35,197 bases of DNA from NCBI GenBank assembly GCA_913048295.1, contig CAJWWK010000021.1, forward strand, positions 1 through 35,197, read 5' to 3'. The notes under the pieces were generated by a model. The model was not told the DNA's origin. It searched no databases and was given only the letters and a program-made list of their open reading frames with translations. A program made the position numbers and the translations under genes. This document shows, in pieces, positions 5,944-8,180 of this stretch; position 1 is the stretch's first letter; each line of letters begins with the position of its first letter. The stretch is from an uncultured Dehalococcoidia bacterium. Its GTDB lineage: Bacteria; Chloroflexota; Dehalococcoidia; Lucifugimonadales; Lucifugimonadaceae.

Positions 5944-6258
5944 TTCTTGTCCTCCTCAATATCGACTTGATCGCCGATATTCACGGTTTAGGGGGCCACG
6001 CGATGGTCACTGAGCACTCACCGGTTCAGGCGCTAGCGCAAGTCATGCATCGGCAAAACGACCAGGGCCGGGTGCCGGAGTATACCGGACGGCGGTTACG
6101 GGAATTCGAGCAGCGCATGGCAAATGGCTGACACATGCCAGTTTTGCGGCATGATTTGCATCGCATGATACGATTTGACCTTCTGGGTGGGAGCCGCCGC
6201 CGCCACACAGGTAACTCGCCCCGCCGCCCGGCATAACAAGCAGATTTGAGGTAGATAG
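5944..6258. other. Divergent intergenic region upstream of the SelW-like pair
   Basis: This spacer separates the minus-strand acetyltransferase from the SelW-like pair and should hold both promoters. The only coding candidate is a 42-codon frame at 6003-6131, listed separately. A hairpin ATGCC/GGCAT (6135-6139, 6148-6152) follows it. TGATACGAT at 6166-6174 resembles an extended -10 box, but I see no matching -35, so I do not call a promoter. Confidence 0.35.
6003..6131 (+). CDS. Possible small protein of 42 residues
   Basis: Not recognised. The frame starts at ATG with a purine-rich AGGGGG about eight bases upstream and ends at TGA. The product is hydrophilic, begins MVTEHSPVQALAQVMHR and ends in a charged helix-like segment YTGRRLREFEQRMANG, which looks more protein-like than most chance frames here. 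It overlaps no other gene and lies 127 nt upstream of the first SelW-like gene. The composition could still arise by chance at this length. No function is proposed. Confidence 0.3.
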   Translation: MVTEHSPVQALAQVMHRQNDQGRVPEYTGRRLREFEQRMANG

Positions 6259-6543
6259 ATGTCCGATCACTGGAAGATGGAAGCTGAGATCGAGTACTGC
6301 GTCCCCTGTGGCTACGCGAACCTTGCCGCGAGCATGGTAAGCGAGCTTTTTCAGGCAGCTGGTCCGGCCCTGGCGATTTCGTTGAAGCCCGGCCACAGCG
6401 GAGCATTTAAGGTAACCGTCGATGGTCGTGTGCTGTGGGACAAGAAGGCCGAAGGTCGATCCCCTCACATTATGGAAATCAAAGCGATGAAGGCAACGGT
6501 TGCCAACATGATCGAGTCTGGCGCTGTAATCCAGACCAGCTAA
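6259..6543 (+). CDS. SelW/Rdx-type thioredoxin-fold protein (Cys form)
   Basis: A 94-residue protein of the Rdx group (SelW/SelT/SelH-like), which adopts a thioredoxin-like fold and is thought to act as a small redox protein. The redox motif CVPC (Cys14, Cys17) follows the first beta strand (AEIEYCVPCGY). The conserved FKVTVDGRVLWDKKAEG strand-turn region comes next, then a C-terminal helix (MKATVANMIES). Start ATG 6259 has GAGGT seven bases upstream. It is 88 nt upstream of a clear paralog whose second redox Cys codon is TGA. The two share AEIEYCVP-x-GY, the VFRVT/AFKVT strand and the KATVANM/KAKVANM helix. It is probably cotranscribed with that gene and ends at the shared terminator. Confidence 0.85.
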   Translation: MSDHWKMEAEIEYCVPCGYANLAASMVSELFQAAGPALAISLKPGHSGAFKVTVDGRVLWDKKAEGRSPHIMEIKAMKATVANMIESGAVIQTS

Positions 6544-6631
6544 ACGGTTCGCTTTGAACAGCCGGCCACGGCAAGCCTGGCCCGGTTGGTGTCAGGTGGG
6601 CAGGGCGTTCAGTTTAAATATGGAGGTTGCT

Positions 6632-6913
6632 ATGGCTGATGTGCCCGCGAAAGTACATGCGGAGATCGAATACTGCGTGCCGTGAGGCTACCACTCTGTG
6701 GCTTTCTGGATGGGAAGCGAACTTTATGTGGCCGGCGGATCGCAGGTGGCGGTGACGTTGACACCCGGCACGGGCGGGGTGTTTAGAGTCACCCTGAACG
6801 GCGAAGTTGTGTGGGACAGGGATGTGCTGGGTCGGTACCCGTCTCTTCCCGATTCCAAGGAACTGAAAGCGAAGGTCGCCAACATGGTCGAGGCAGCGAC
6901 GGCGGCTGTTTAA
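6632..6913 (+). CDS. SelW/Rdx-type selenoprotein, in-frame TGA read as selenocysteine
   Basis: The frame runs from ATG 6632, with GGAGG five bases upstream, to TAA at 6911-6913, with a single internal TGA at 6683-6685. Read as selenocysteine, the 93-residue product has CVPUGY (Cys15, Sec18). This is the CxxU redox motif known for the SelW family, exactly where the upstream paralog has CVPCGY. The rest aligns well with the paralog, including FRVTLNGEVVWDRDVLGRY and LKAKVANMVEA. A bacterial SECIS-like hairpin begins right after the TGA. An alternative is a restart at GTG 6698, but that would remove the first strand and both redox residues. Sec insertion needs selA, selB, selC and selD, none of which is in this window. 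Confidence 0.82.
6686..6718 (+). promoter_or_regulatory. Candidate bacterial SECIS element
   Basis: In the mRNA just after the UGA, GCUUUC (6701-6706) pairs with GGAAGC (6713-6718): six pairs including one U-G, around the loop UGGAUG. The loop begins 21 nt after the UGA and has a G among its first two bases. Both agree with the published general rules for bacterial SECIS elements (distance roughly 16-37 nt, G near the start of the loop). The Cys paralog has GCCGCG and GTAAGC at the equivalent codons and cannot form this stem. Confidence 0.65.
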
Positions 6914-6947
6914 GACCGCCGATTGGCCCGTCAGTGTGATAGTTGAT

Positions 6948-6990
6948 AAGACACCCGGACTTCTACAGTCCGGGTGTCTTTTTGTTTTTT
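6948..6990 (+). terminator. Strong intrinsic terminator after the SelW-like pair
   Basis: ACACCCGGAC (6951-6960) and GTCCGGGTGT (6968-6977) form a perfect 10-bp stem, extendable by AAG/CTT to 13 bp, around the loop TTCTACA. A T-rich tract follows directly (6979-6990). It ends the transcript of the SelW-like genes 34 nt after the stop codon. Confidence 0.92.
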
Positions 6991-7088
6991 ACTAATCGCG
7001 CTAGCGGCTTTACGAAGCCGTTTGTTTCGGTTCAGAATATGTGTGAAAGTTCGATATTTATCCGCCTGAAATCACCGGGAGCACCAGC

Positions 7089-8180
7089 TTGAAAGCAGCC
7101 GTCCTTTTCGAATCGAACAAGCCCATGCCGATCGTGGAGCTCGACCAGTCGGAGCCAAAGTCCGGCGAAGTGCGGGTCAGAATGTCGGCCGCGGGTGTAT
7201 GCGCCTCGGACTATCACGTAATGACAGGGCACAACCCGACCCCGATGCCAATAGTCCTGGGCCATGAGGGTGCAGGCGTTGTCGAGGCTGTAGGGCCGGA
7301 CGTGACGAGCGTGAAAATAGGCGATCGCTGTGTATTGTCGTTCGTTGCGAACTGCGGCCACTGCAGGTCGTGCCGAACGGGACTTTCAAACCTCTGTGAC
7401 ACCAACCGTGAAACTGGAACCCGCCAGTATGACGGCACTTTTCGCCTTCACACCGACGATGGAACTGAGGTTCACCAGTTCGCCAAACTGGGAGTGTTCG
7501 CCGAATCGATAATCGTTCCCCACCAGGCCTGTTACCCGATTCCCGACGACGTACCGATGGAGGTTGCAGCTCTCATCGGCTGCTCGGTCACAACCGGCAT
7601 TGGCGGGGTGATCAACCAGCCGGGCATGCGTGCCGGAATGACCGTTGCTGTAATAGGCGCCGGAGGCGTGGGGCTGAACGCTCTTCAGGGTGCAAGGCTG
7701 ATGAACGCGTCGAAGGTGATTGCAGTCGATATCTTCGATCACAAGCTTGAATTTGCCTACAAGTTCGGGGCGACCGATGTTATTAATTCAAAGGAGCAGG
7801 ATCCGGTTGCGGCGATCCAGGAGATGACCGACGGCGGCGTTGATTTTGCATTCGACACATTCGGTCACAAGATCACGACCGAGCAGGCGTGGGGTGCCAC
7901 CCGCAAGGGCGGCACGACTGTCGTGGTGGGTCTTGCTCCCGACGGCATGACTGCCGAAATCCCGATGATCGATCTGGTCCGCAACCAGAAAACCCTTGTC
8001 GGCAGCTATTACGGCTCGGCCAGTCCGCACGAGACGTTCGGCAAGTTGCTCGACTTCTACCTGCAGGGCCGGATTGAAGTTGACGGGATGGTGACCCGCC
8101 GCCACAAGCTTGAGGACATTAACGAGGCATACGAACTGCTGGCGAAGGGCGAAGACGGCAGGGGAGTGATTATTTTTTAA
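7089..8180 (+). CDS. Zinc-dependent alcohol dehydrogenase, MDR superfamily
   Basis: A 363-residue medium-chain dehydrogenase/reductase, expected to oxidise an alcohol (or reduce an aldehyde) with NAD(P). The GroES-like domain has catalytic zinc ligands Cys38, His59-Glu60 and Cys165. The structural zinc lobe has Cys89, Cys92, Cys95 and Cys103 (CGHCRSCRTGLSNLC). The Rossmann domain has GAGGVG (190-195) and an Asp at the end of strand 2 (AVDIFD), which favours NAD over NADP. Start TTG 7089 has GGGAG seven bases upstream. The gene stands alone between the terminator and the repeat region. The class III-like layout suggests broad alcohol or S-hydroxymethyl thiol substrates, but the real substrate is unknown. 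Confidence 0.9.
   Translation: MKAAVLFESNKPMPIVELDQSEPKSGEVRVRMSAAGVCASDYHVMTGHNPTPMPIVLGHEGAGVVEAVGPDVTSVKIGDRCVLSFVANCGHCRSCRTGLSNLCDTNRETGTRQYDGTFRLHTDDGTEVHQFAKLGVFAESIIVPHQACYPIPDDVPMEVAALIGCSVTTGIGGVINQPGMRAGMTVAVIGAGGVGLNALQGARLMNASKVIAVDIFDHKLEFAYKFGATDVINSKEQDPVAAIQEMTDGGVDFAFDTFGHKITTEQAWGATRKGGTTVVVGLAPDGMTAEIPMIDLVRNQKTLVGSYYGSASPHETFGKLLDFYLQGRIEVDGMVTRRHKLEDINEAYELLAKGEDGRGVIIF

Follow-up and report, generated by a model that had tools for sequence, protein, structure and literature searches.

A predicted SelW-like selenoprotein gene of a SAR202 bacterium in tandem with its cysteine paralog

The eukaryotic proteins SelW, SelT and SelH carry a CxxU redox motif, and the eukaryotic SECIS element is located in the 3' UTR. 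In the bacterial model, the SECIS (bSECIS) is a hairpin 16-37 nt after UGA, with a loop of 3-9 nt and G among the first two loop positions (PMC13188914). According to marine surveys, SelW-like proteins are a prominent group: they form the most abundant family, with 48 genes, in the Sargasso Sea survey (PMC1088965), they top the GOS family table with 427 sequences (PMC2398784), and they account for 11.3% of selenoprotein genes in a survey from 2021 (PMC9402790). According to a comparative study from 2006, Cys homologs of SelW-like are very few or absent in organisms that use selenocysteine (Sec) (PMC1794560). Within the SAR202 group, Ca. Lucifugimonas marina JH1073 is a cultivated strain; the main text of the paper describing it contains no word beginning with seleni- or seleno- (PMC10444878). 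Our search for open-licence papers on SAR202 and selenoproteins found none.

Here we describe a gene in the window, that is, the whole analysed stretch of 35,197 nucleotides, which we assign to the bacterial SelW-like selenoproteins with a probability of about 0.96. The gene (6632-6913, forward strand) runs from ATG at 6632 to TAA at 6911-6913, and its 94 codons would specify 93 residues, including one Sec. Its single in-frame TGA, codon 18 (6683-6685, forward strand), stands in the context TGC GTG CCG TGA GGC TAC, predicted to be read as C-V-P-U-G-Y. Sec would thereby occupy the second redox position of a CxxU motif near the N-terminus (CVPU, residues 15-18). A putative ribosome binding site, ATGGAGGT, is read from the sequence at 6620-6627 on the same strand, 5' of the ATG, with GGAGG at 6622-6626; GGAG also precedes the start codon in 14 of 15 orthologous loci, the exception being L044. 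The frame contains an in-frame GTG at 6698. Gene callers that take TGA as a stop would be expected to miss genes of this type or to cut them.

Upstream lies a tandem paralog of 94 amino acids (6259-6543, forward strand), with the motif CVPC encoded by TGC GTC CCC TGT GGC TAC, TGT standing where the other gene has TGA. The two proteins can be aligned on each side of the TGA. An in-frame TGA that matches Cys in homologs and has conserved flanks is a recognised sign of a selenoprotein, and the window gene displays it. Both products belong to the Rdx family: the Cys paralog and the Sec protein score 65.6 and 66.1 bits against Pfam Rdx (PF10262, curated cut-off 22.6), and 46.3 and 46.0 against TIGR02174 CXXU_selWTH (cut-off 34.2). 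The sequence-only reading had reported the 94-codon frame with its ribosome site and one internal TGA, the similarity to the paralog on both sides of it, its position at the second redox Cys and the membership in the SelW family; sequence, alignment and profile scores bear out all of these. As family and motif suggest, the product would act in thiol/selenol redox chemistry through a Cys-Sec pair. These two genes are the only Rdx matches listed in the genome.

The neighbours of the pair are ordinary. A scan of nine frames, one of them without a match, identified on the upstream side a cyclophilin/PD40 protein, a PLP enzyme and an acetyltransferase, and on the downstream side a zinc alcohol dehydrogenase together with NADH dehydrogenase subunits. 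A hairpin resembling an intrinsic terminator, by pattern match, follows the pair (6948-6980, forward strand; 14 pairs and a T tail). It is the richest in pairs among five terminator-like sites in 6000-7100, where shuffled sequences contain 1.1.

If the TGA were a true stop, the locus would be either a pseudogene or the source of only a short peptide and a fragment starting at GTG 6698. A scan of relatives' contigs yielded 17 loci, and the match is the Sec copy in 15 of them. In all 15 the active-site codon is TGA and the upstream neighbour has TGT or TGC; with the window included, all 16 intact close orthologs have TGA. At the other two loci (L047 and L048) the matches are Cys copies, whose codon is not TGA. 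A profile search of these loci for a further Rdx frame found none, and G099 and G075, apparently their genomes, have one stop-free Rdx match each. One of the 15 loci, L032 (contig SMWD01000133.1), encodes a SelW protein 92% identical to that of the window and comes from a MAG titled Gammaproteobacteria; the contig probably stems from a SAR202 bacterium and was mis-binned.

The frame after the TGA is under purifying selection. Over codons 31-88 of the 16 orthologs, mean dN is 0.155 and mean dS 1.79 (72 of 120 pairs computable, dS near saturation), giving dN/dS of about 0.09. An in-frame TGA at all 15 orthologous loci, followed by codons with these dN and dS values, is more than chance would give. 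Decay of the downstream frame had been named beforehand as an observation that would speak against Sec. The orthologs do not show it; decay was found in one lineage, and this is what a true stop has in its favour. In G105, from the same genus, L100 (about 1837-2110) is a remnant of the Sec copy that has lost the first motif Cys and has a broken frame. It adjoins an intact Cys copy, and SelA is retained in that genome.

Rdx rows from wider samples were read through stops. For the 69 genomes of the order sample 82 Rdx rows were listed, of which 69 contain a single stop, always TGA, and 13 contain none; in the family sample (61 genomes, 67 rows) 27 rows have one TGA and 40 have no stop. TAA or TAG is absent from all 149 rows read in this way. 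The samples overlap and are not independent sets, as G003/G095, G016/G099 and G017/G075 share SelA-search coordinates. In the 188 frames from which the active-site codon was read, representing 158 unique rows, the codon is TGA in 102, TGT in 27 and TGC in 26, with three rows unregistered. These frames were split at TAA and TAG, and the absence of those codons rests on the read-through rows instead; one TGA row (the second copy in G020) and seven family Cys rows without a locus were not fetched. L074 entered as TGT by mis-registration and is really CVPU. The unregistered rows are L100 and L064 with L187, the latter two being one gene that has lost both active-site positions. This gene belongs to a tandem Rdx pair in G037 (C10 near 159865-160432) in reverse order, with the TGA copy first and SLSD in place of CxxC in the second. 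The proposed comparison of the TGA column among homologs thus gave TGA in 16 of 16 orthologs and, family-wide, only TGA, TGC or TGT among registered codons. Against the constant TGA in intact orthologs, the low dN/dS after it, the 149 rows with one TGA or no stop, and the synonymous conservation directly after the TGA described below, we consider a true stop very improbable.

The window's assembly, from an uncultured marine member of the Chloroflexota, comprises 2.43 Mb in 110 contigs and is 89% complete. The genome is congeneric with the SAR202 isolate Ca. Lucifugimonas marina and closely related to it, since the SelA coordinates of G095, a complete genome of the window's genus drawn from the family sample, coincide with those in the genome of locus L034, Ca. 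Lucifugimonas marina JH1073. Strain JH1073 itself has the Sec/Cys pair at L034.

A search for the Sec machinery, suggested by the sequence-only reading, which had named its absence as evidence against Sec, found selA (508 bits), selB (323 bits) and selD (362 bits) in the window's genome, all above curated cut-offs, together with a tRNA-Sec that is incomplete at a contig end. Contig C36 opens with this tRNA gene, which is cut at its 5' end so that the first 5 bases are missing. It scores 45.3 in a plain search, where the cut-off is 47, and 50.8 bits in cmscan with truncation allowed. Its 93 remaining bases are all identical to the Ca. Lucifugimonas marina gene, which ARAGORN reports as tRNA-SeC with anticodon TCA and which scores 66.4 bits with Rfam. 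The SelD match (L025, C10:15984-16913, minus strand) itself contains one in-frame TGA, in the motif CAGUAGK, and is likely a second selenoprotein of this genome.

The tRNA-Sec cut-off is weak when used alone, as it is passed by the tRNA-Ser(GCT) of the window's genome, the top raw match there, and by 5 of 14 control genomes. The other candidates checked in the window's genome were Ser, Leu, Trp, Arg and His tRNAs. Above-cut-off matches to selB, selA and selD occur in 2, 1 and 2 of the 14 controls, respectively. With three of the four machinery queries, weak matches turn up in every control genome, and for this reason only those above the cut-off were counted. A tRNA-Sec above 65 bits is present in 13 of the 15 ortholog genomes, and ARAGORN confirmed it in the four of these that were fetched; G006 and G012 are the two without. 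The best candidates of G006, G012 and G016 proved to be tRNA-Ser.

SelA and TGA-containing Rdx genes tend to occur together (counts that ignore relatedness). In the order sample both are present in 48 genomes, TGA-Rdx only in 2, SelA only in 10 and neither in 9 (Fisher 6e-5), so that SelA is above cut-off in 48 of 50 genomes with TGA-Rdx versus 10 of 19 without. The corresponding counts in the family sample are 25, 2, 15 and 19 (Fisher 9e-5), or 25 of 27 versus 15 of 34. SelA without TGA-Rdx is expected, because SelA also serves other selenoproteins. The four genomes with TGA-Rdx and no SelA above cut-off (G041, G043, G107 and G128) are MAGs 74-82% complete, and G107 has a partial SelA match. 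Among the relatives scanned, all 15 genomes that carry the Sec copy have SelA above cut-off, and neither of the two that lack it does (L047, L048). The L032 MAG is a weak member of this count, because both its SelA and its tRNA-Sec are found on a single contig, C70, which may come from another organism. Sec use is common across the window's order as sampled here, with SelA above cut-off in 58 and TGA-Rdx in 50 of 69 genomes.

Downstream of the TGA, the window gene contains a bSECIS-type hairpin, GCUUUCU-GGAU-GGGAAGC (6701-6718, forward strand). It agrees with the bacterial model: the loop GGAU begins with G, 22 nt after the TGA. In all 16 orthologs the V codon just 5' of the stem is GTG, and the A and F codons of the stem are GCT and TTC. 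Synonymous identity among the 16 Sec genes is 0.826 at codons +4 to +12, versus 0.498 in the codons preceding the TGA and 0.458 further on, from +13. Matching stretches of the 16 Cys paralogs give 0.499, 0.610 and 0.474, respectively.

Folding was compared with synonymous resampling in genes reduced at 85% identity (63 of 102 TGA genes and 29 of 52 Cys genes, the mis-registered L074 dropped). Constrained hairpins average -6.46 kcal/mol in the TGA genes versus -3.21 after resampling (Wilcoxon p 4e-11), whereas the Cys genes give -2.18 versus -2.07 (p 0.86). Codon usage was pooled over genomes, an imperfect background for which the Cys genes serve as control. Of the two groups, only the TGA genes show a hairpin signal that exceeds resampling. 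Gene by gene, the best hairpin does not reach -4 kcal/mol in 13 of the 63 TGA genes, and significance at 0.05 is attained by only 11.

Covariation points in the same direction, measured against shuffles that ignore relatedness. In the 53 of 63 TGA genes with TGGAT at the loop, 244 of 318 cells are paired versus 192.7 (sd 4.2) after shuffling; in the 29 Cys genes 76 of 174 are paired, which is the shuffled level (76.7). Cells changed on both sides number 51 in the commonest register and 1 to 27 in slid registers. A register slid by 3 comes near in pairing (0.717 versus 0.767) but has only 1 such cell. Over all 63 TGA genes the commonest register is still the best, with 0.741 paired and 57 cells changed on both sides, the next-best values being 0.698 for pairing and 36 for such cells. 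The window hairpin is shifted by one base relative to the common register, whose two outer pairs are each formed in only 23 of 53 genes. Free RNAalifold of the 16 close orthologs chose a different helix, overlapping the TGA, and the window's own 42-nt fold is no better than shuffles (z -0.78); these two kinds of folding did not by themselves establish a SECIS.

The same results bear on the idea that the TGA is decoded as an amino acid other than Sec, by a variant code or by insertion of Cys at UGA. A Cys product could be active too, and beyond this we found no specific support for it. The presence of selA, selB, selD and tRNA-Sec, the SECIS-type signal in TGA genes and its absence from Cys genes, the restriction of registered codons to TGA and Cys codons, and the way TGA-Rdx tracks SelA all argue for Sec, and leave decoding as another residue with hardly any probability. 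The identity of the window gene as a SelW-like selenoprotein is, at the level of sequence, strongly supported by the in-frame TGA at CxxU, the SECIS-type hairpin downstream, the genomic Sec machinery and purifying selection after the TGA; the machinery, the TGA column and this selection likewise support the initial proposal that the TGA encodes Sec. By analogy with the E. coli system, SelB bearing Sec-tRNA-Sec would bind the hairpin and place Sec at the UGA.

The history of the pair was approached with an Rdx tree of 112 rows and 84 columns, in which the active-site column was masked and a midpoint root served for drawing only; L074, L138, the three unregistered rows and near-copies were left out. 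The Cys copies of the window's family fall within a starred fork (97) comprising 46 Sec and 15 Cys rows, so that the Cys copy is nested among predicted Sec proteins. The Sec/Cys label changes 4 times in the tree, and Sec is the state of 90 of the 112 rows. Read most simply, the Cys copy derives from a Sec ancestor by duplication; Sec was probably replaced by Cys in the duplicate, which would then have no need of selenium. The opposite course, with Sec arising from Cys after duplication, gains some room from the short alignment, the 51 of 109 inner branches that are open and the midpoint root, which keep the direction from being firm. Given the fork and the prevalence of Sec, we regard it as unlikely. 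The Cys Rdx protein of L067 (G051, same order, other family) groups with the Cys copies of the window's family, possibly through transfer or mis-binning.

Several genomes of the family have the Cys copy only and no SelA above cut-off (for example G045, G075 and G109, of 1.3-1.4 Mb), and others have the Cys copy only with SelA present (for example G110 and G125). We tentatively suggest that the pair may represent selenium-dependent isoforms, in which a Cys copy derived from the Sec gene is kept where the Sec copy, and sometimes SelA, is absent, as a selenium-independent backup in SAR202. The pair and its Cys-only relatives would offer a natural comparison of the benefit of selenium.

The window selenoprotein belongs to a family already known from the ocean; the less expected feature is the tandem Cys/Sec pair, an arrangement that we did not meet in print in the open-licence literature, as far as the sources reach. 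Solved Rdx structures (PDB IDs: 2ojl, 2fa8, 2oka and 2p0g) match the window protein in sequence over most of its length (E 1e-13 to 2e-8); they are separate proteins, likened to it by sequence alone. The eukaryotic SelW, SelT and SelH share the CxxU motif with it, whereas the window hairpin lies inside the coding sequence. The main texts of the two marine metagenome papers on SelW-like proteins do not contain the word "Chloroflexi", and we met no tandem Cys/Sec pair there (PMC1088965, PMC2398784). The proteins they describe share with the window CxxU, a bacterial SECIS after the UGA and the SelW family, while the side-by-side Cys copy departs from the few or no Cys homologs stated in the comparative study (PMC1794560).
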